Of a stretch of 20,766 nt of DNA, positions 12,973 through 20,663 are shown one piece after another (the first letter of the stretch is position 1; the number at the start of each line of letters is the position of its first letter). The position numbers were made by a program, and so were the translations under genes. Origin of the DNA: a virus; the IMG/VR virus record IMGVR_UViG_3300044846_002548, positions 1-20,766 of that record. One strand, given 5' to 3'. The notes below the pieces were generated by a model. That model saw only the letters and a list, made by a program, of their open reading frames with translations, did no database searches and was not told the origin of the DNA.

Positions 12973-14988
12973 TTAAACTTTCTTAACCCCCGTTGGTAAA
13001 GTTAAGTCCATTCTATTTTTAATTGTGTTGATAATTAATTCAGGGCTTTTTTCAATCTGTGTTTTAATTGCTTCCGCCATTTGTTGCGTAACACCAGGAG
13101 CGTCAATTTTTAAAGTTAACGTCATATCACCACTAACGTTTGTATTATTATTAACATTAGCCGTTGTTCCACCAGTCTTTAATTGTTCTTGTGTAAATGA
13201 TGATAAAGCTGTTTTTGTATCTTCAACATTAGTTGGTTGTTTAGGTGGTAACATTTTTGTCCCTCCAAGAACTAAATCACCTTCATTTAATTTACCTATT
13301 TGTCCATTTACCGCAATAAAGTCATCAATATCAAAAACAGATTTAAGTACACTAACAATTGAATTTGCCGCGGTTGAAAACCCAGGAAAAAATGTTTCCA
13401 TAGCTTTAGATAAACTAGTCATATCAGTAATTCCACCTTCTTTAATTGGGTTTACGACTAATTTATTTAACAAGTCAACAGTCCCACTATTACTAGCGTT
13501 TATTGATTCCATTGCCTTAACTAAATCACCATTCATTAAATAATCTGCAGCTTCAGCCAATTTTTCACTTGAGCTATCAAGAATTTGAAAATTTGCTTTC
13601 ATTTCACTAGCAGAATACGGTTTAGTTGCTTCGCCAAAAGTATCAGTAACTCTTTTGTTAACACCTTTTAGAAAATCATCCGCACCTTTAGAACCGGCAG
13701 CCAATGTTGCAATTCCCATATTTAAAGCTTCTAATTGTTTTAAACTTCGTTCCGCGTATCCTAATTGGTCAACCGCAATGTCTTGCATTGATTTCCCCAT
13801 CATTTCTTTTTGGTTATCTAAAAACGACTTTAAACTTTCTTGACTTTTTCCTAATTCACTAAATGCCTTATCTTGTACTTCACCTTTTTCATCTTTAAAT
13901 TTAACAAAATATTCCATTTTGCCGGTCTTTTCATTTTTCTTCAATTCAGCCATTTGAGCAATTTGTTGTTTTTGCTCATCTGAAAAATCTAAACCATCAA
14001 AACTTATTTGTGACATTTTTTCTTTTAACTTGGCACCTTCAATACTCATTTTAGTTAGGTTTTCATAACTAACACCAATTTCTTTACTTATTTGCATTAA
14101 TTCACGTCTAGACCCCGGCATTATATTAAAGGTCTTTGTTTTTTCATCAAAATAAGTGTATTTTTCAGTAAGCTTAGCTAATTCATTTTGTAATTCGGGC
14201 ACATTATTTTGAGCCATATCCATTAACTTTAATGGGTCAGCCAAAGCGCTAGATGATGCTCCTAATCTTTGAAATGCGGATGCAACTTCAATTGCCTTTT
14301 CAGGTGATAATAAATCTTCTGCTAAACTAAAAACTTGGGTCATATCAATTCTTAATGCCGCAGATTTTGCTGCCATTTCAGCAAGTCCTTTGACACCACC
14401 AGGAAAACCAAATTTATTCATTTTTTCTAAATTTGAAACAACTAAATTAGAAACCGCTTGAGCGTTAACACCCATAGATGTTGAAGTTTCTAAAACTGTT
14501 TTCATTTCTTCAGATATTTGACTAGTTTCCCTACCTATGTCACTAAATGCTGATTGTAGAGCTCCGGCAGATTGTCCTGTAACTTTAGATGTTGCGTTAA
14601 TGTCAGCAATAATTTCACCTGACACCATAGCATTTTTATTGGTTGTTTTTAATATTTCTTGAGCGACCGCCAATCCGGTTTCCGCATCACCACCTGCTTT
14701 AATAATATCAATTGCCGCAGTGGCCAATTCTCTTTTTAAGATTAAAGAAGAATTACTTGTCAAACCCATGTTCCTAACTAAGGAAGCTGCCCGTTTGTCC
14801 ATTTTAATAATTTCTTCAGTGGCATTTGACAGTGAACCTGCTATTGATACCGCAACACTAGCAGCACCACCCAAAGCACTTATTAATTTAGATGTGTCAG
14901 TAACTTGTTTGTTAGGGTCAAGAGCCTCTTTGGCACTAGATATTATGTTTTTACCTTTATCCCCTGTCGCTTGAAAGAAAAATCCCAT
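12973..14988 (-). CDS. Tail tape measure protein
   Basis: A 671-residue protein directly after the tail assembly chaperone, the classic place for a tape measure. It is Ala/Ser/Lys-rich and mostly helical. It has a hydrophobic glycine/alanine stretch near 39-57 ('GGAASVAVSIAGSLSNA') and long amphipathic helices with repeated 'TSKVTGQSAGALQSAFSD'-type segments (about 130-150). The C-terminal part is Thr/Asn/Gly-rich (from about 590) with 'LNEGDLVLGG', often seen at tape measure ends. At roughly 1.5 angstrom per residue its length predicts a tail of about 100 nm, close to T4 (gp29, 590 aa). It starts 20 bases after the stop of the out-of-frame chaperone extension and is followed by a 36-base gap. 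No catalytic domain was seen. Confidence 0.8.
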   Translation of the reverse strand: MGFFFQATGDKGKNIISSAKEALDPNKQVTDTSKLISALGGAASVAVSIAGSLSNATEEIIKMDKRAASLVRNMGLTSNSSLILKRELATAAIDIIKAGGDAETGLAVAQEILKTTNKNAMVSGEIIADINATSKVTGQSAGALQSAFSDIGRETSQISEEMKTVLETSTSMGVNAQAVSNLVVSNLEKMNKFGFPGGVKGLAEMAAKSAALRIDMTQVFSLAEDLLSPEKAIEVASAFQRLGASSSALADPLKLMDMAQNNVPELQNELAKLTEKYTYFDEKTKTFNIMPGSRRELMQISKEIGVSYENLTKMSIEGAKLKEKMSQISFDGLDFSDEQKQQIAQMAELKKNEKTGKMEYFVKFKDEKGEVQDKAFSELGKSQESLKSFLDNQKEMMGKSMQDIAVDQLGYAERSLKQLEALNMGIATLAAGSKGADDFLKGVNKRVTDTFGEATKPYSASEMKANFQILDSSSEKLAEAADYLMNGDLVKAMESINASNSGTVDLLNKLVVNPIKEGGITDMTSLSKAMETFFPGFSTAANSIVSVLKSVFDIDDFIAVNGQIGKLNEGDLVLGGTKMLPPKQPTNVEDTKTALSSFTQEQLKTGGTTANVNNNTNVSGDMTLTLKIDAPGVTQQMAEAIKTQIEKSPELIINTIKNRMDLTLPTGVKKV

Positions 14989-15008: not shown

Positions 15009-15161
15009 TTAATTTGTTTCCCTACTTTCAATTATTTTTCCGATAATATATTTTCTTTGGTAGGTAGGTATCTTCATAAAATCAGAATATCCCATATGTA
15101 ACCTAGATGAAAGAATAATATATTCATCTAATAATATCTGAACGTAATCAGAAGAAAGGGC
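15009..15161 (-). CDS. Out-of-frame extension of the tail assembly chaperone (gpT-like), read by +1 frameshift
   Basis: In the +1 frame relative to the chaperone, 50 codons run from GCC at 15161 to TAA at 15011-15009. The product starts 'ALSSDYVQILLDEYIILSSR' and continues 'LHMGYSDFMKIPTYQRKYII'. This is a short helical protein with the 'HM-x-x-S-D-F-M-x-I-P-x-x-x-R' pattern seen in C-terminal parts of tail assembly chaperones. The frame has no ATG before a methionine 23 residues in, but it overlaps the end of the upstream gene, so entry by frameshift fits best; TTG starts at 15179 or 15173 are an alternative. The fused product would have 296 residues (246 + 50). Position directly before the tape measure matches the G/GT arrangement of lambda and many other tailed phages. 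Confidence 0.72.
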   Translation of the reverse strand, partial: ALSSDYVQILLDEYIILSSRLHMGYSDFMKIPTYQRKYIIGKIIESRETN

Positions 15162-15900
15162 GAAAAAAGTCAACCCCAAAGGAAACTTGAACTGTTACCT
15201 TTTCTCCTGATGGGGCTATTACTTGTCTTTTTAGGTCTAATCCTGGTTCTATATCATTTAAGAAATCTCTAATGAATTTAGAATCAGATATTGGTAGTGT
15301 GTCAATAAATTTAGATATTGTTTCTTTAGATTGATTACCATTAACTTCTTGTATCTGTTTCATCAATCTCCACGTGATTTTTGGAGTAACCATTCCTTTT
15401 GGGTAAGATTCTTCCATTTTGGTGAGTTCTTTTGTTTCCCCATAGGTTAGGATTTTTAATTTAACAGACGCTCCACTTTTTGGTAATTGTACATCATAAA
15501 ACCCATTTTCATTTGGTTTTTGATTTATTTTTTTAAAATCAAGTTCAGACAAATCAAGTGTTGTTTCAAATTCTTTTCTTGTCACAGGGTCAATAACAGA
15601 CAACGTATAGTCATACCCAAAAGAAGTATTCCTTAAAAATATCATAACAGCTTCAACATCGCCAGGTATCATTTCATCAATTTTAATATCTGGTTCATAA
15701 ATTTTACTTCTTAGTAAATTTGTAATAATATTTTCTAAAGAATTACTAGATAATGTTGCAAGTATATTTTCATCGGATGCGGTAAGAAATCCAACCTTAA
15801 TTGACTTCTTTTTATTTTTATAAAAAATACCTTCACTAGGTAATGTAACAACATCGTGAGGTAAATTAAAATTTTCTTGTCCTGCTATTTTTTCATCCAT
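15148..15900 (-). CDS. gp26: Tail assembly chaperone / T4 gp26-like baseplate protein
   Basis: A 250-residue protein with the T4_baseplate family start pattern 'VVTLPSEGIFY' (about 17-27), then 'VGFLTASDENIL' (about 37-48), alternating helices and strands, and a C-terminal beta part ending 'SFGVDFFRPFF'. T4 gp26 (208 aa) and gp51 carry this kind of domain and act in hub assembly. In many phages the protein just before the tape measure is the chaperone that coats it until the tube forms, so a chaperone role is inferred. The zinc-type cysteines of some relatives are absent. An out-of-frame extension follows without its own good start, so two products (250 and 296 aa) are likely. The gene begins 50 bases after the tube terminator, so it needs its own promoter or readthrough. 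Confidence 0.72.
   Translation of the reverse strand: MDEKIAGQENFNLPHDVVTLPSEGIFYKNKKKSIKVGFLTASDENILATLSSNSLENIITNLLRSKIYEPDIKIDEMIPGDVEAVMIFLRNTSFGYDYTLSVIDPVTRKEFETTLDLSELDFKKINQKPNENGFYDVQLPKSGASVKLKILTYGETKELTKMEESYPKGMVTPKITWRLMKQIQEVNGNQSKETISKFIDTLPISDSKFIRDFLNDIEPGLDLKRQVIAPSGEKVTVQVSFGVDFFRPFF
15159..15168 (-). other. Probable +1 ribosomal frameshift site (UUU UUU C GCC)
   Basis: In frame 0 the codons are GAC UUU UUU CGC CCU. If the tRNA-Phe on the second UUU (15165-15163) slips forward one base it pairs with UUC, a perfect match for its GAA anticodon; the next codon is then GCC of the extension. The frame-0 codon CGC is likely rare in this AT-rich genome, so a slow A-site would favour slipping. 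Frame 0 ends only four codons further at TGA (15150-15148). A homopolymer miscall in the A6 run is the main alternative. Confidence 0.6.
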
Positions 15901-15950: not shown

Positions 15951-15972
15951 AAAACCCACATAAGTGGGTTTT
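15951..15972 (-). terminator. Intrinsic terminator after the tail tube gene
   Basis: The minus-strand RNA folds AAAACCCAC / GTGGGUUUU as a perfect 9-bp stem around the loop UUAU, followed by UUUAUUUA. It lies 22 bases after the tube stop (15995), exactly where transcription of an abundant structural gene would be closed. Confidence 0.88.
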
Positions 15973-15994: not shown

Positions 15995-16483
15995 TTAATA
16001 AAGTAATACACAATAGTCAGGTCTTAAAGTTGCCGAAATATCCGCTAGTCCATCGTCACCATAACCTAAAGAACCAAAATCAACATCGGTTAAGAATGTG
16101 TTAATTAATTTCCATTTTTCAATTACAACACCTGTTGGGTCTAACATTTCCAAATCTAAATCTTTTTTATAACCCGCAGCGTATCCCATACGACCAGTTA
16201 CTGATTCTGCATGTAGACGAACCCATTCCATTAAAGCTTGAGCGGCTGATGGACCAATAGGGTCACGGAATTTAACAGTTATAGAACCCCATTCATACAT
16301 ACCAGCGACATATCTCTTAGTATTTAAAAATGGAATATCTTTTGAAGCAATTGTGATTTTTGGTCTTGATGCCGTTTCAACAAACCATTCATTAATACCC
16401 AACTCGGATGGAAATCTAAGTATAAACCTGTTTTTCTTTTTAGGCTCATAAGGTATCGGCATTTTCATTAGTAAATCAGCCAT
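15995..16483 (-). CDS. gp19: Tail tube protein, T4 gp19-like
   Basis: At 162 residues it matches T4 gp19 (163 aa) in size. Family patterns seen: an N-terminal 'KKNRFILRF' strand, 'WFVETASRPKITI' (about 33-45), 'AGMYEWGSITVKFRDPIGPS' (about 60-79) and a helix 'AAQALMEWVRLHAESVTGRM' (80-99). A 'DLDLEMLDPTGVVIEKWKL' strand pair follows, then a terminal strand 'LADISATLRPDYCVL'. The protein stacks in hexameric rings to form the tube through which DNA passes, surrounded by the sheath. It has an A-rich leader without a Shine-Dalgarno sequence and its own terminator downstream, in keeping with high expression. It lies between the HAD hydrolase and the chaperone. Confidence 0.9.
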   Translation of the reverse strand: MADLLMKMPIPYEPKKKNRFILRFPSELGINEWFVETASRPKITIASKDIPFLNTKRYVAGMYEWGSITVKFRDPIGPSAAQALMEWVRLHAESVTGRMGYAAGYKKDLDLEMLDPTGVVIEKWKLINTFLTDVDFGSLGYGDDGLADISATLRPDYCVLLY

Positions 16484-16592: not shown

Positions 16593-17417
16593 TTAATATG
16601 GTTTTTTAACTCCTCCATGTGTTGAAATTGTTTTAATTATATTATCTGGTTCTTTTCCTAGTTCATCTTTAACTTTTTCTAAATTTCTTAAATCATCGTC
16701 TGAAAATCCAATGGATGGTGTAAAGTTACCTGATACATCGTTCTTAAACATTGCAGATTTATTTAATCTACCGGAAAGGTATTTAACATAATTTTGAAAT
16801 TCTTTTAACGCGATAACTTTTCCTTTTTCGGGATTTTGTGCCGACCCACTTCCATAAGTTACAGGATAATATTTGTTCATATCCATATAAGCGTCAACTA
16901 ATTGGTCGTCGTCCATATCTTCTTCGTTTGCAATATCTCTAAATTTTCTTAAATTTCTAACTAATTCTTTTTTAGATATTCCTTTATAGTTCATATCTAT
17001 CAAATTTTCAATAGCTTTTCTAATTACTAATGGTGAATGTCCTCTGGCGGTAACTATTGAAAAGATTGACCCTCCGTTTATTGCTTCCACAAAGTCATCC
17101 CAAGCCGGTCCTAATTCAGCAATCATTGTATCAAGTATAAATCTTTTGTCCCCTTTTGTTGAAAAGAACCTGAAGGGGTCTTCTGCGAAATTACAAATTT
17201 GTTCACCCTTATATTCAAAAGGTTCTTTACCAATCAATGTTCTATATTCCGCAAAATCTTCAGTTCCCATACCTATTTCTTTAGGGTTTTGTTCGTCACA
17301 ATTTTTTAAAACTATTTTTGTCGGCATGTACATAATATTGTCATCCCAATCAAAAGCGTAATATTTTAAATTAGGTGTCGTTTCTTCTTTAAAATTTTCA
17401 ACTAAATAAACTTTCAT
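16593..17417 (-). CDS. HAD-superfamily hydrolase of unknown substrate
   Basis: With the start at 17417 the protein has 274 residues. HAD motifs are in order: motif I 'AFDWDDN' with D23 and D25 as nucleophile and acid/base; motif II 'SIVTARG' with T123; candidate motif III lysines at K198/K200/K205; and motif IV 'GFSDDDL' with D240-D242. It is thus probably an active Mg-dependent phosphatase or phosphotransferase; the substrate is unknown. A longer reading from ATG 17453 is rejected because it begins inside the sheath terminator and would add 'MWGFLFIIIF', a translation of the hairpin; ATG 17423 is also possible. Its position between sheath and tube is unusual, as T4 has no enzyme gene there. 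A 16-base element overlapping the start is shared with the sheath leader. It may act on nucleic acid ends, nucleotides or a virion component; the sequence does not decide. Confidence 0.8.
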   Translation of the reverse strand: MKVYLVENFKEETTPNLKYYAFDWDDNIMYMPTKIVLKNCDEQNPKEIGMGTEDFAEYRTLIGKEPFEYKGEQICNFAEDPFRFFSTKGDKRFILDTMIAELGPAWDDFVEAINGGSIFSIVTARGHSPLVIRKAIENLIDMNYKGISKKELVRNLRKFRDIANEEDMDDDQLVDAYMDMNKYYPVTYGSGSAQNPEKGKVIALKEFQNYVKYLSGRLNKSAMFKNDVSGNFTPSIGFSDDDLRNLEKVKDELGKEPDNIIKTISTHGGVKKPY

Positions 17418-17432
17418 AAACATAAATATTAT
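17417..17432 (-). repeat. 16-base repeat at the HAD gene start (copy 2 of sheath leader element)
   Basis: ATAATATTTATGTTTA on the minus strand is identical to 20706-20691 upstream of the sheath. Here it immediately follows the sheath terminator, includes a TATAAT (17433-17428, overlapping by one base) and runs into the ATG at 17417. It may be a promoter for the HAD gene with a very short leader. Confidence 0.45.
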
Positions 17433-17440
17433 AATAAACA

Positions 17441-17468
17441 AAAACCCCCACATTTCTGTGAGGGTTTT
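17441..17468 (-). terminator. Strong intrinsic terminator after the tail sheath gene
   Basis: The minus-strand RNA forms a 12-bp stem (AAAACCCUCACA / UGUGGGGGUUUU, with one U-G wobble) capped by a GAAA tetraloop, followed by UGUUUAUU. It lies 18 bases after the sheath stop at 17487. Confidence 0.9.
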
Positions 17469-17486
17469 AAATTTATATTATCTTTT

Positions 17487-20400
17487 TTAGATATTTTCAA
17501 AAGACGCTCCTGATGGTGTAATCAAGAATTCAATGTCAATGAATTCAAGTGCTTTAGTTGGTTTGATGTAAATTTTACCAACCAATTGATTTGCATCTAA
17601 ATCTTCAGGTGTGTTTTGAACAGTAACTCTGAAATCGTATAAACCTCTATCTCTACGAATTGCATCTAAGATAGGATTAACAGCGTCTAAGAATTGTTGT
17701 CTAACGATGTTGTCGTTTTGTTCAAATAACAATCTAACAGATACTGCAGATATCAATTTACGAGCTTGTAATAACAATCTTCTAACATTAATTCTGTCTA
17801 ATGCAGATTCAGCAATTTGTAATGTTTTGTTACCCCAAATTACAGTTCCAACATCATTGAATGTTGCGATTGGATTAATTCTACCCTTATAAAGAGTGTC
17901 TCTATCTTCTTGAGTTAATCTCTTACGTGCTCTGATAGAATTAACTAAACCTCTTGAATATCCTGCGGTTGCGAACCATGGGAATGCAATGTTGTCAGTC
18001 AATGCTAAGTTCCTACAAACTTCACCAGTTGCTGGTAAATAAATTTGTGTATTATTAACAGTGTCACGAGTTAATACCCAAGGATAGTAAGTTGCAGTGT
18101 AGTTAGAATCAATTCCTGTGGTTTCTAAATTATCAACTGATTCTTGTGGATAGATAAGATTATCCATAGATGTTGATGGTTGTAATAGATTAAAGTCAGG
18201 TGTTGTTACAATATAGATAGAATCTGCTCTGTCGTTTTCAATCATATCAATTGCCGATTCTACAAGATTACTATTGTTAACATAGTCAATTCCAGGTGTG
18301 ACAAATACATTGATGTTTGTTACTTCAGGGTTATTGAATGTTAAGATACCTTGTAAGTATGCGTAGTAGTCAGTGTTACCAAAATCAGTTGTTCCGTCAC
18401 CGTAACTAATGATTTTAAATGAACCCCAACCTGTAGATGTTGGATATGGGTCTTGTGCACAGAATCCAGCCTTAAATCCTGATTGACCTAAAGTGAATCT
18501 ATCACCATTAGTTCTTCTTTCAGTATAGATATCCCATCCGTCAAATCCACCTTGTACTAAGAAAGTGAATTTTCTTGCAAATAATCTGTAGTAAGGATTT
18601 TCAGGGTCTGTTGGTTCAGAACTAAATGACGCATCACCAACATAGAAAGCTGATTCACCACTAGTTGTATAGTTGTCAGATATTGTCACAACTGTCGCCC
18701 CACTATCCATGTGGAAACCTTTAGTTAATGTTGCCCAATTAGAATAAGTTCCTTCAACACACAAATCCAATGGTTTTTGTTTACCTTTGTATTCAAAGAA
18801 ATCGGCATCAAATCCGTAACCGTCCGCAGTTGAAATTCCTAAGAATGTTCTTCTTACATTGTCACCAGGACTTAATTTTGGGTCGTCAGCTCCGCTAGCA
18901 GCACCAAATGGTGGGTTAGACATAACAGTTCCTGGTATATCGTATTTTGTTTTGAATACTGGGAATGGCGACTTATCACTAGAATATTGTCTACTAATAA
19001 ATCCTTCAAATCCACAAGGTAATGCATCTATCGGAGCTTCAGTATTAACTTCAACCATAATGAATTTTGATTGAATCGCATATTCACCGTCAGATGTACC
19101 AATTTTCTTAGCGATATAATTGTTTTGGTCTGGGTCCATTGAACAGTTTGTGAATTTTTCAAAAACTGTTGGGTTAGCATCAGTGTCGTAAAAATCTCTA
19201 ACCACAACATCAAAAGTTTGATTTGTGAATGAAATGTTTAAGATAGAAATTTTTACTTCTCTATTTGCAGAATTTCCGTCAGATATTGTGAATGCTTTAA
19301 ACAATTTATAAACTTTACTACCTCTTAATTCAGAAACAACCCAAGGAGATTCAGGTGTTTGATATTTTTCCAAATAAAAACCAATACTATCAGTATTAAG
19401 TGGGTCTCTAGCCTCACCTAATGAAGTTAATGTTGATTTAATACCTCTGATGTATCCTTTATTATAACCGTAGTTTAATAATGTTTGGTATCTTTCTTCT
19501 AAGAATAATGGAACTTCAGTTCTTTCCTTTGCAAAGTTTTCACTTCCAAATACACTACTAATATAATTAGCGTCTGAGTTATTAAATGAAGTTTCAAATG
19601 TGAATGTTTTATTAGTTTTAGTGACACCTGATATTAAGAATGTTGAATATGGATTTTTAGTTGATGCAGAATATGCTCCTGAAGTAACTAATTGAACATC
19701 AGATGTTCCAGTGACTTGATACTGTGGTCCACTAAGTGTCGTAGAATATTCTGTAATACCTCTTGAACGTAAAGTTGCAATTACTAAATTATTATATCCT
19801 GAGAATGTTAATCCTGAATATGTGAACATACCAACATAACAGTTACCTGAAAATTGTCCTCCGCCTTGTGGGGTTAAACTATTAACATAATTAAAGAAAG
19901 AATAACCTGTGTAAGACTCACCTGTTGTTGGGTTAAAGTTTGAATAGAACCAAGCGTCGTTAGTACCACTGTTAAAATCTGCTGATGTACTTGATACATT
20001 ATTAACTGCAAATACGTTTGTCGCAGATGTATAAGTTAAATTTAATTGACTATATGTTGAACCTGAAATTGTTCCAAAATAAGTAATTGTATTTGCAGAT
20101 TTTGAAGGTGTTTGTAATATTGATAAAATTTGGGTTTGTAAATCCGATTGAATTGTGGATGTTAAACCATTAAACTTAGTATACTGTGTAGTAAAATTAC
20201 CACTTAACAAACCTGGTATATTTGTAAACGCAATACTTGATGTTGATGCGGTTGTCCCTGTGAAGTTCATTAATGTCGTTGTAATATTACCATTAAATCC
20301 AATTGTTGCAGGATTAACATTTGCCACGGTTCTGATTGTCCATGATGGGCCTGCGTCATATCCTGATAATCCTAATACTCTTGTAACAAACAACTGATTT

Positions 20401-20663
20401 GATTGTTGTAAGTAGGATTTTGCAATATATGAAGACTCATATTTTGGAATTTGAGTGTTTACAAATTTTTCAGGTGTTGTTCCCCCAAAATAAGTTTGGA
20501 AATCGTCATAGTTAGTTATGAAAATAGGTTCAAATGCGGGTCCTTTTAAAGTTTCCCCGACAATTCCAAGTGTTGTAATACCGACACTTTGCGATACAAA
20601 TGATAAGTCTCTTTCGGAAGTATATACACCTGGTGAGACAAATATTTTATTAGATGTTGCCAT
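17487..20663 (-). CDS. gp18: Tail sheath protein, T4 gp18-like, enlarged
   Basis: The N-terminus 'VSPGVYTSERDLSFVSQSVG' and 'GPAFEPIFITNYDDFQTYFG' (about 9-60) is the standard sheath start. The C-terminal domain (about 900-1058) has 'RGLVNSIRARKRLTQEDRD', 'INPIATFNDVGTVIWGNKTL', 'NVRRLLLQARKLI' and 'VRLLFEQND', all typical of gp18. Copies form the contractile jacket around the tube that drives infection. At 1058 residues it is about 400 longer than T4 gp18 (659). Extra mass includes a Ser/Thr/Gly/Asn-rich beta-like insert at about 110-290 and further insertions in the middle; these probably form surface-exposed domains. Codon use looks less AT-biased than in the unknown genes, as expected for a highly expressed product. 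The start has an A-rich leader ('AAAAATAAACATG') and no Shine-Dalgarno sequence. Confidence 0.93.
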   Translation of the reverse strand: MATSNKIFVSPGVYTSERDLSFVSQSVGITTLGIVGETLKGPAFEPIFITNYDDFQTYFGGTTPEKFVNTQIPKYESSYIAKSYLQQSNQLFVTRVLGLSGYDAGPSWTIRTVANVNPATIGFNGNITTTLMNFTGTTASTSSIAFTNIPGLLSGNFTTQYTKFNGLTSTIQSDLQTQILSILQTPSKSANTITYFGTISGSTYSQLNLTYTSATNVFAVNNVSSTSADFNSGTNDAWFYSNFNPTTGESYTGYSFFNYVNSLTPQGGGQFSGNCYVGMFTYSGLTFSGYNNLVIATLRSRGITEYSTTLSGPQYQVTGTSDVQLVTSGAYSASTKNPYSTFLISGVTKTNKTFTFETSFNNSDANYISSVFGSENFAKERTEVPLFLEERYQTLLNYGYNKGYIRGIKSTLTSLGEARDPLNTDSIGFYLEKYQTPESPWVVSELRGSKVYKLFKAFTISDGNSANREVKISILNISFTNQTFDVVVRDFYDTDANPTVFEKFTNCSMDPDQNNYIAKKIGTSDGEYAIQSKFIMVEVNTEAPIDALPCGFEGFISRQYSSDKSPFPVFKTKYDIPGTVMSNPPFGAASGADDPKLSPGDNVRRTFLGISTADGYGFDADFFEYKGKQKPLDLCVEGTYSNWATLTKGFHMDSGATVVTISDNYTTSGESAFYVGDASFSSEPTDPENPYYRLFARKFTFLVQGGFDGWDIYTERRTNGDRFTLGQSGFKAGFCAQDPYPTSTGWGSFKIISYGDGTTDFGNTDYYAYLQGILTFNNPEVTNINVFVTPGIDYVNNSNLVESAIDMIENDRADSIYIVTTPDFNLLQPSTSMDNLIYPQESVDNLETTGIDSNYTATYYPWVLTRDTVNNTQIYLPATGEVCRNLALTDNIAFPWFATAGYSRGLVNSIRARKRLTQEDRDTLYKGRINPIATFNDVGTVIWGNKTLQIAESALDRINVRRLLLQARKLISAVSVRLLFEQNDNIVRQQFLDAVNPILDAIRRDRGLYDFRVTVQNTPEDLDANQLVGKIYIKPTKALEFIDIEFLITPSGASFENI

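Follow-up and report, generated by a model that had tools for sequence, protein, structure and literature searches.

The T4_baseplate-family chaperone gene on the analyzed viral DNA very probably gives rise to two tail assembly chaperones by a programmed +1 frameshift at the sequence UUU UUU CGN, aided by an RNA hairpin. The probability of this reading was estimated at roughly 0.87. The comparison of related loci showed selection on the slip site, on the out-of-frame tail and on the hairpin, and this comparative evidence argues that the programmed +1 frameshift is real throughout this large clade of T4-like phages. A +1 shift giving a chaperone pair had been proposed in an earlier note on the same DNA and is supported by the conserved UUU UUU CGN, the +1 tail and the selection described below. 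The term window refers to the whole analyzed stretch of 20,766 nucleotides.

Genomic Context and Reading Frames

The short chaperone form (TAC-N-like) is encoded in the 0 frame on the minus strand at positions 15148 to 15900. It has a length of 250 aa and the C-terminal end GVDFFRPFF. The 3′ end of this frame reads GAC TTT TTT CGC CCT TTC TTC TGA, with the stop codon at 15150-15148. The gene matched the Pfam family PF12322 (T4_baseplate) with an E-value of 2.6e-10 and 40.8 bits, which is above the curated cut-off of 24.5, and phrog_150 (baseplate hub) with an E-value of 7e-16.

In the +1 frame, the junction reads TTT TTC GCC CTT TCT TCT GAT TAC and its translation is FFALSSDYVQILLDEYIILSSRLHMGYSDFMKIPTYQRKYIIGKIIESRETN, followed by a stop. 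The tail encoded in this frame (GCC to AAT; 15009 to 15161, minus strand; stop codon TAA at 15011-15009) comprises about 50 codons in the window and would form the helical C-terminal extension of a long, TAC-NC-like form. Between the preceding stop and the slip site, the +1 frame of the window contains no ATG and only two TTG codons. The distance from the tail stop to the next ATG, at 14988, is 20 nt. The 0-frame end, the length of the tail, its lack of an ATG and the spacing to the tape-measure gene had all been described in the earlier note and were confirmed.

The order of genes in the window is sheath, unknown ORF, tube, chaperone gene and a long ORF in the tape-measure position. As in G/GT-type systems, the chaperone gene is thus located between a tail tube gene, which lies upstream at 15995 to 16483 (minus strand; phrog_4542 tail tube, E-value 2e-26), and the ORF in the tape-measure position. 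The latter (12973 to 14988, minus strand, 671 aa) was assigned by synteny, with annotated tape measure genes located downstream in the relatives L190, L191, and L192. It had no family match and no significant match to the tape measure ORF of phage immuto.

The tail sheath gene (17487-20663, minus strand) is unusually long with 1058 aa, and its sheath domain match is confined to the C-terminal part. The ORF between sheath and tube (16593-17453, minus strand, 286 aa) carries the HAD-like motif FDWDDN and has no convincing family match. In the intergenic region between tube and chaperone gene, a terminator-like hairpin of nine pairs with a T tract was found at 15951-15972, which is terminator-like on both strands and did not occur in shuffled sequences. 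No tRNA was found in the window and the Rfam search gave no match.

Conservation of the Slip Site

A first scan of IMG/VR yielded 80 relatives. Their 3′ ends comprise 49 distinct sequences, of which one is cut before the site and two just after it. TTT TTT CGN was present in all ends reaching the site, and a homologous +1 tail in all that were long enough. Widened scans resulted in a total number of 187 loci. A homologous tail in the +1 frame was identified in 175 of the 184 non-truncated loci, which show, as G/GT genes do, an overlapping out-of-frame 3′ extension behind a conserved slip site.

For the analysis of codon choice, 142 non-redundant relatives were used, in which the slip site (UUU UUU CGC in the window; 15160 to 15168, minus strand) is near-invariant. 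In 140 of 140 cases, the second Phe is encoded by TTT, whereas 10 of 140 have TTC as the first Phe codon. The following A-site codon is CGN in 127 and TGG in 13 relatives. Wherever Arg occupies this position it is encoded by CGN (127/127) and never by AGA or AGG, which make up 83% of the Arg codons in the remainder of the gene. The Asp codon preceding the T run is GAC in 37 cases and GAT in one, compared to 72% GAT elsewhere, and GGG encodes the Gly located three codons 5′ of the first Phe in 126 of 130 sequences, compared to 10% elsewhere. The nominal binomial p-values for the second Phe codon, Arg, Asp and Gly were 2e-14, 1e-97, 1e-19, and 4e-119, respectively; they treat the relatives as independent and are thus overstated, the direction of the effect not being in doubt. 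In the genes of the window, CGC and CGG were each found once among 178 Arg codons, which bears out the earlier assumption that CGC is rare.

Within the clade only two exceptions with a T before the T6 run were found, L122 (which has TTC TTT) and L277. This scarcity indicates that the −1 heptamer U UUU UUC is avoided, and the site, being followed by a +1 tail, does not correspond to a −1 heptamer of the type X XXY YYZ. The clade tree shows three origins of the variant TTC TTT CGN (L122, L136, and L150). TTC TTT TGG was found in L170-L184, and TTC TTT CGT in the distantly related phage GXN1. As in prfB-type frameshifting, the P-site tRNA can re-pair in the +1 frame (UUU to UUC), and the second Phe codon is always UUU. 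The codon pattern of the compared sequences is that of a putative forward slip of tRNA-Phe in the P site, namely a second UUU, then C (or the U of UGG), and a slow codon.

Selection on the Tail

The selection analysis was based on 127 non-redundant relatives with more than 45% identity and tails of 47-63 aa. In the +1 frame of the tail, 1881, 1123, and 3955 differences were counted at codon positions 1, 2, and 3, respectively, and pN/pS was 0.20. Stop codons were found in none of the 127 tail frames, while the other two frames contain stops in 126 and 127 relatives. The comparison of junction, overlap and tail that had been suggested earlier as a check thus revealed conservation of all three, with a synonymous bias of the tail in the +1 frame.

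RNA Hairpin Upstream of the Slip Site

Directly 5′ of the slip site, a hairpin supported by covariation and conserved pairing was identified at 15173 to 15216 (minus strand). The interval 15009-15180 given in the earlier note covers the overlap and the tail but misses this element. The outer stem GCCCC/GGGGU (15212-15216 with 15173-15177) is paired in 99.5% of cases and has the clade consensus [G/A]CCCC with GGGG[U/C]. The inner stem consists of 10 pairs (15193-15202 with 15178-15187) and encloses the loop 15188-15192. Between both stems, an 8-nt bulge, UCAGGAGA (15203 to 15210), is nearly constant and coincides with the synonymously constrained codons TCA GGA GAA of residues 231-233. Besides the slip site, synonymous-site conservation peaks at the codons GCC (229), GGA (232), GAA (233), and GGG (242). 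The distance from the hairpin to the T6 run is 5 nt and that from the end of the 3′ arm to the slipping codon is 8 nt.

The covariation score of the whole structure was 0.182 in 78 sequences, compared to 0.116 in shuffles (0 of 500 reached 0.182) and 0.057-0.114 in slid registers. On the tree, 23 compensatory branch events, in which a standard pair was replaced by another on both sides, were counted, compared to 1-10 in slid registers and a mean of 6.6 when these columns were re-matched at random (23 was reached in 0 of 2000 re-matchings). The signal comes mostly from the inner stem, as the outer stem hardly varies. The inner helix is paired in only 75% of the cells, and RNAalifold alone recovered the outer stem only. 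The hairpin overlaps the coding sequence, and some of the conservation could be due to other factors. For upstream hairpins at the corresponding positions of distant relatives, mixed z-scores were obtained.

The sequence UCUUCUGA (15148 to 15155, minus strand), which spans the 0-frame stop codon, is complementary to the bulge and tentatively represents a pseudoknot arm. It pairs with the bulge in 87.5% of the cells; the bases hardly vary and give no compensatory support. A simple H-type pseudoknot formed by GCCCC/GGGGU and by the bulge with the 3′ arm was also considered. Its second helix is without covariation, and the fold is regarded as a possibility.

A Shine-Dalgarno sequence was found before none of the 12 window genes examined for it. 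The absence of this motif is usual in Bacteroidota, and some of the relatives infect, or were binned with, members of this phylum. The host therefore seems not to use Shine-Dalgarno sequences. Since the near-invariant GGGG pairs with the CCCC of the hairpin and the window genes are without Shine-Dalgarno motifs, an internal Shine-Dalgarno sequence, i.e., a duplex with the ribosomal RNA, is less likely as the stimulator. Hairpins beside the E site of 70S ribosomes were described to stimulate +1 and to attenuate −1 frameshifting, mimicking an internal Shine-Dalgarno duplex (PMC6321510). By analogy, the hairpin probably stimulates the shift from upstream and may stand in for the ribosomal RNA duplex. 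For the more far-reaching idea of a natural, clade-wide +1 shift that is driven by an upstream hairpin replacing the Shine-Dalgarno/anti-Shine-Dalgarno duplex, perhaps with a pseudoknot around the slip site, we see even chances.

Proposed Mechanism

From these patterns we infer the following course of events. Most ribosomes would terminate at the 0-frame stop and produce the 250-aa short form. Some would pause with tRNA-Phe on the second UUU and the rare CGC waiting in the A site. The peptidyl-tRNA could then re-pair one base forward on UUC, so that GCC is read as the next codon and translation continues in the +1 frame, and the resulting long form of 296 aa would carry the helical tail. The hairpin would refold once its 3′ arm leaves the ribosome and would thereby favor forward and block backward slippage, and the avoidance of a seventh T would additionally suppress −1 shifting.

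Alternative Explanations

The frame of the tail would also be entered by a programmed −2 shift as used by phage Mu (PMC5009743), in which tRNA-Phe moves back two bases and one extra Phe is inserted before GCC is read. The T6 run lets tRNA-Phe re-pair perfectly at positions 2-4, so that this shift is possible for the T6 members taken alone. In the TTC TTT variants, however, which were gained three times independently and account for 10 of 140 sequences, it would place UCU under the slipped tRNA, which departs from the Mu type, whereas a +1 shift requires precisely the features seen here, a C following the run and a slow CGN or UGG codon. Because of these variants, the direction +1, which rests on codon logic, is favored and a −2 shift is considered unlikely. 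Transcriptional slippage on the homopolymer, by which some of the mRNAs acquire five or eight U, would result in the same proteins. Yet the T6 run is short, and longer runs, which slippage should favor, are avoided (one GAT versus 37 GAC). For the TTC TTT members with three T only, such slippage is implausible, and it leaves CGN, GGG and the hairpin unexplained; we regard it as highly improbable.

The tail could also be a separate small protein translated from its own start codon without any frameshift, as annotated for gp51 of KVP40 and P-SSM2. In S-SM2, too, the annotation gives the tail a small gene of its own. Likewise, the loci L179 and L185 appear to be arranged in this way, as they contain the tail only as a separate ATG ORF after the chaperone stop while the connecting frame is closed, and an upstream ATG in the +1 frame is present in 43 of the 127 relatives. 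On the other hand, 84 of the 127 are without an ATG (72 have only GTG or TTG, and 12 none of the three), eight have a stop codon directly in front of the slip site, homology in this reading frame extends from that site onward, and no Shine-Dalgarno sequence was found. Across the compared clade, no start codon for the tail appears to be conserved, which makes independent initiation quite unlikely there. A normal start codon of the second ORF in relatives had been named beforehand as evidence against a shift; none is conserved in the clade, but the annotations of KVP40 and P-SSM2 and the sole arrangement of L179 and L185 are of this kind. The same was said of a run of five T, which would fuse both frames into a single gene interrupted only by a sequencing or assembly error. 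In a pattern scan, a single five-T stretch was detected, compared to at least 120 with six T. The contig with the five-T copy is riddled with indels, requiring three frames within approximately 150 bp, and the copy is read as a sequencing error and not as a true single gene. Hundreds of independent contigs share the arrangement of the window, as do the cultured phages immuto, Mel-JY01, SP-15, and GXN1, some of whose junctions are not six-T. By these relatives, a sequencing error as the origin of the two frames is refuted and its remaining probability is negligible. The programmed +1 shift is therefore retained as the preferred reading.

Frameshifting in the Wider Family

Among 23 records searched for PF12322, two copies were found only in T4, one copy in 18 records and no hit in four. 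The two T4 copies are gp26 and gp51, the latter consisting of a gp26-like part and an extra C-terminal segment that resembles the +1 tail. The statement of the earlier note that T4 encodes them as separate proteins is correct in that there are two genes; they are, however, short and long paralogues of the same family, a pair formed by duplication. A profile of the +1 and −1 tails matched the C-terminus of gp51 weakly, with an E-value of 0.0057 followed by a control ORF with 0.031, and the suggested link between the tail and T4 gp51 is weak and transitive.

In KVP40, P-SSM2, S-SM2, Atu_ph07, PA5oct, and LR756511, the tail follows U UUU UUC in the −1 frame; in RAS14, it follows U UUU UUU. The −1 sites at the ends of the gp26 homologues in L193 (3789), L194 (3810), L195 (3822), L196 (3705), L197 (3684), L085, and L086 (U UUU UUU in the case of RAS14) are not annotated as frameshifts. 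In the wider family, +1 junctions were identified in Mel-JY01, immuto, SP-15, LIS04, GXN1, and LR756508, and less surely in QdP_Psa3. On the protein tree, which includes several long branches, the +1 label needs three changes, of which at least two are forced by well-supported branches; the direction of the frameshift thus appears to have switched. Streptococcus phage GXN1 (L083; PQ819873) clusters with Bacillus phage SP-15 and Listeria phage LIS04, all of them +1. The arrangement in L179 and L185 suggests that the frameshift was lost close to Flavobacterium phage immuto.

Predicted Structure and Function

A structure model was made of the fused form of the relative L089, not of the window's own protein. 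The mean pLDDT was 87.7, and the tail was predicted to form helices at residues 252-267, 271-276, and 279-293. A Foldseek search of this model against the PDB gave no match below an E-value of 0.001, and the sequence search of the PDB no match. Among the re-aligned chains, the best matches were YqbN (3KLU, Z 5.7) and the HK97 tail assembly chaperone (2OB9, Z 5.0), both values being too low to be secure on their own. The identity of these top two matches of the model fits the position and the structure of the gene. By analogy, the two products would be the short and the long tail assembly chaperone, probably coating the tape measure protein and initiating the tail tube.

Comparison With Known Systems

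G-T frameshifting was described to be widely conserved except in T4, and a +1 shift to be very likely in HSTV-2 (Atkins 2016; PMC5009743). According to the passages citing it in the PRFect paper (PMC10885494) and the Adele paper (PMC12846349), Vladimirov 2022 reported that some T4-like phages possess short and long fused genes; both also credit it with poly-T −1 signals in other T4-like phages. As far as these sources go, the T4 gp26/gp51 pair, the T4-like tail assembly chaperones and the −1 poly-T shifts are already published. In the open-access papers searched, no description of a +1 member of the PF12322 family or of an upstream hairpin was found. The predicted +1 variant in the T4_baseplate chaperone family and its covarying upstream hairpin are considered new here.

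The results place putative +1 frameshifting in the T4_baseplate chaperone family. Apparently the same protein pair is encoded in four ways, by a +1 shift, a −1 shift, a separate small ORF and gene duplication. In phages of this clade, annotators miss or misname the long form. The hairpin looks like a natural upstream element steering the direction of a frameshift. To our knowledge, previous examples of such steering are mostly reporter constructs, along with a viral −1 attenuator.

The arrangement resembles gpG/gpGT of phage lambda, where one gene between the major tail protein and the tape measure gives a short and a long product by low-level frameshifting near its 3′ end, as in other long-tailed phages (Xu 2004; PMC5009743). 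Lambda shifts by −1, whereas here a +1 shift on UUU UUU CGN with an upstream hairpin is proposed, in the family PF12322. T4 shares the Pfam family, and its gp51 tail is similar to the +1 tail; it uses two paralogous genes instead of one gene with a frameshift. The poly-U sites of other T4-like phages (KVP40, P-SSM2, PA5oct; Vandenendeviridae, PMC12846349) have U UUU UUC and shift by −1, while the seventh U is avoided here and the shift would be +1. The haloarchaeal myovirus HSTV-2 very likely also has a +1 shift in its tail chaperone gene (PMC5009743); its host is archaeal. In bacterial prfB (release factor 2) with CUU UGA, the P-site tRNA also slips onto a U-rich codon in front of a slow A site with the help of an upstream duplex. 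The corresponding elements here are the sense codon CGN and an intramolecular hairpin. Finally, the refolding hairpins tested on 70S ribosomes are similarly placed beside the E site, where they stimulated +1 and attenuated −1 shifting (PMC6321510); those were reporter constructs, whereas the hairpin described here is a natural conserved element with a putative effect of the same kind.
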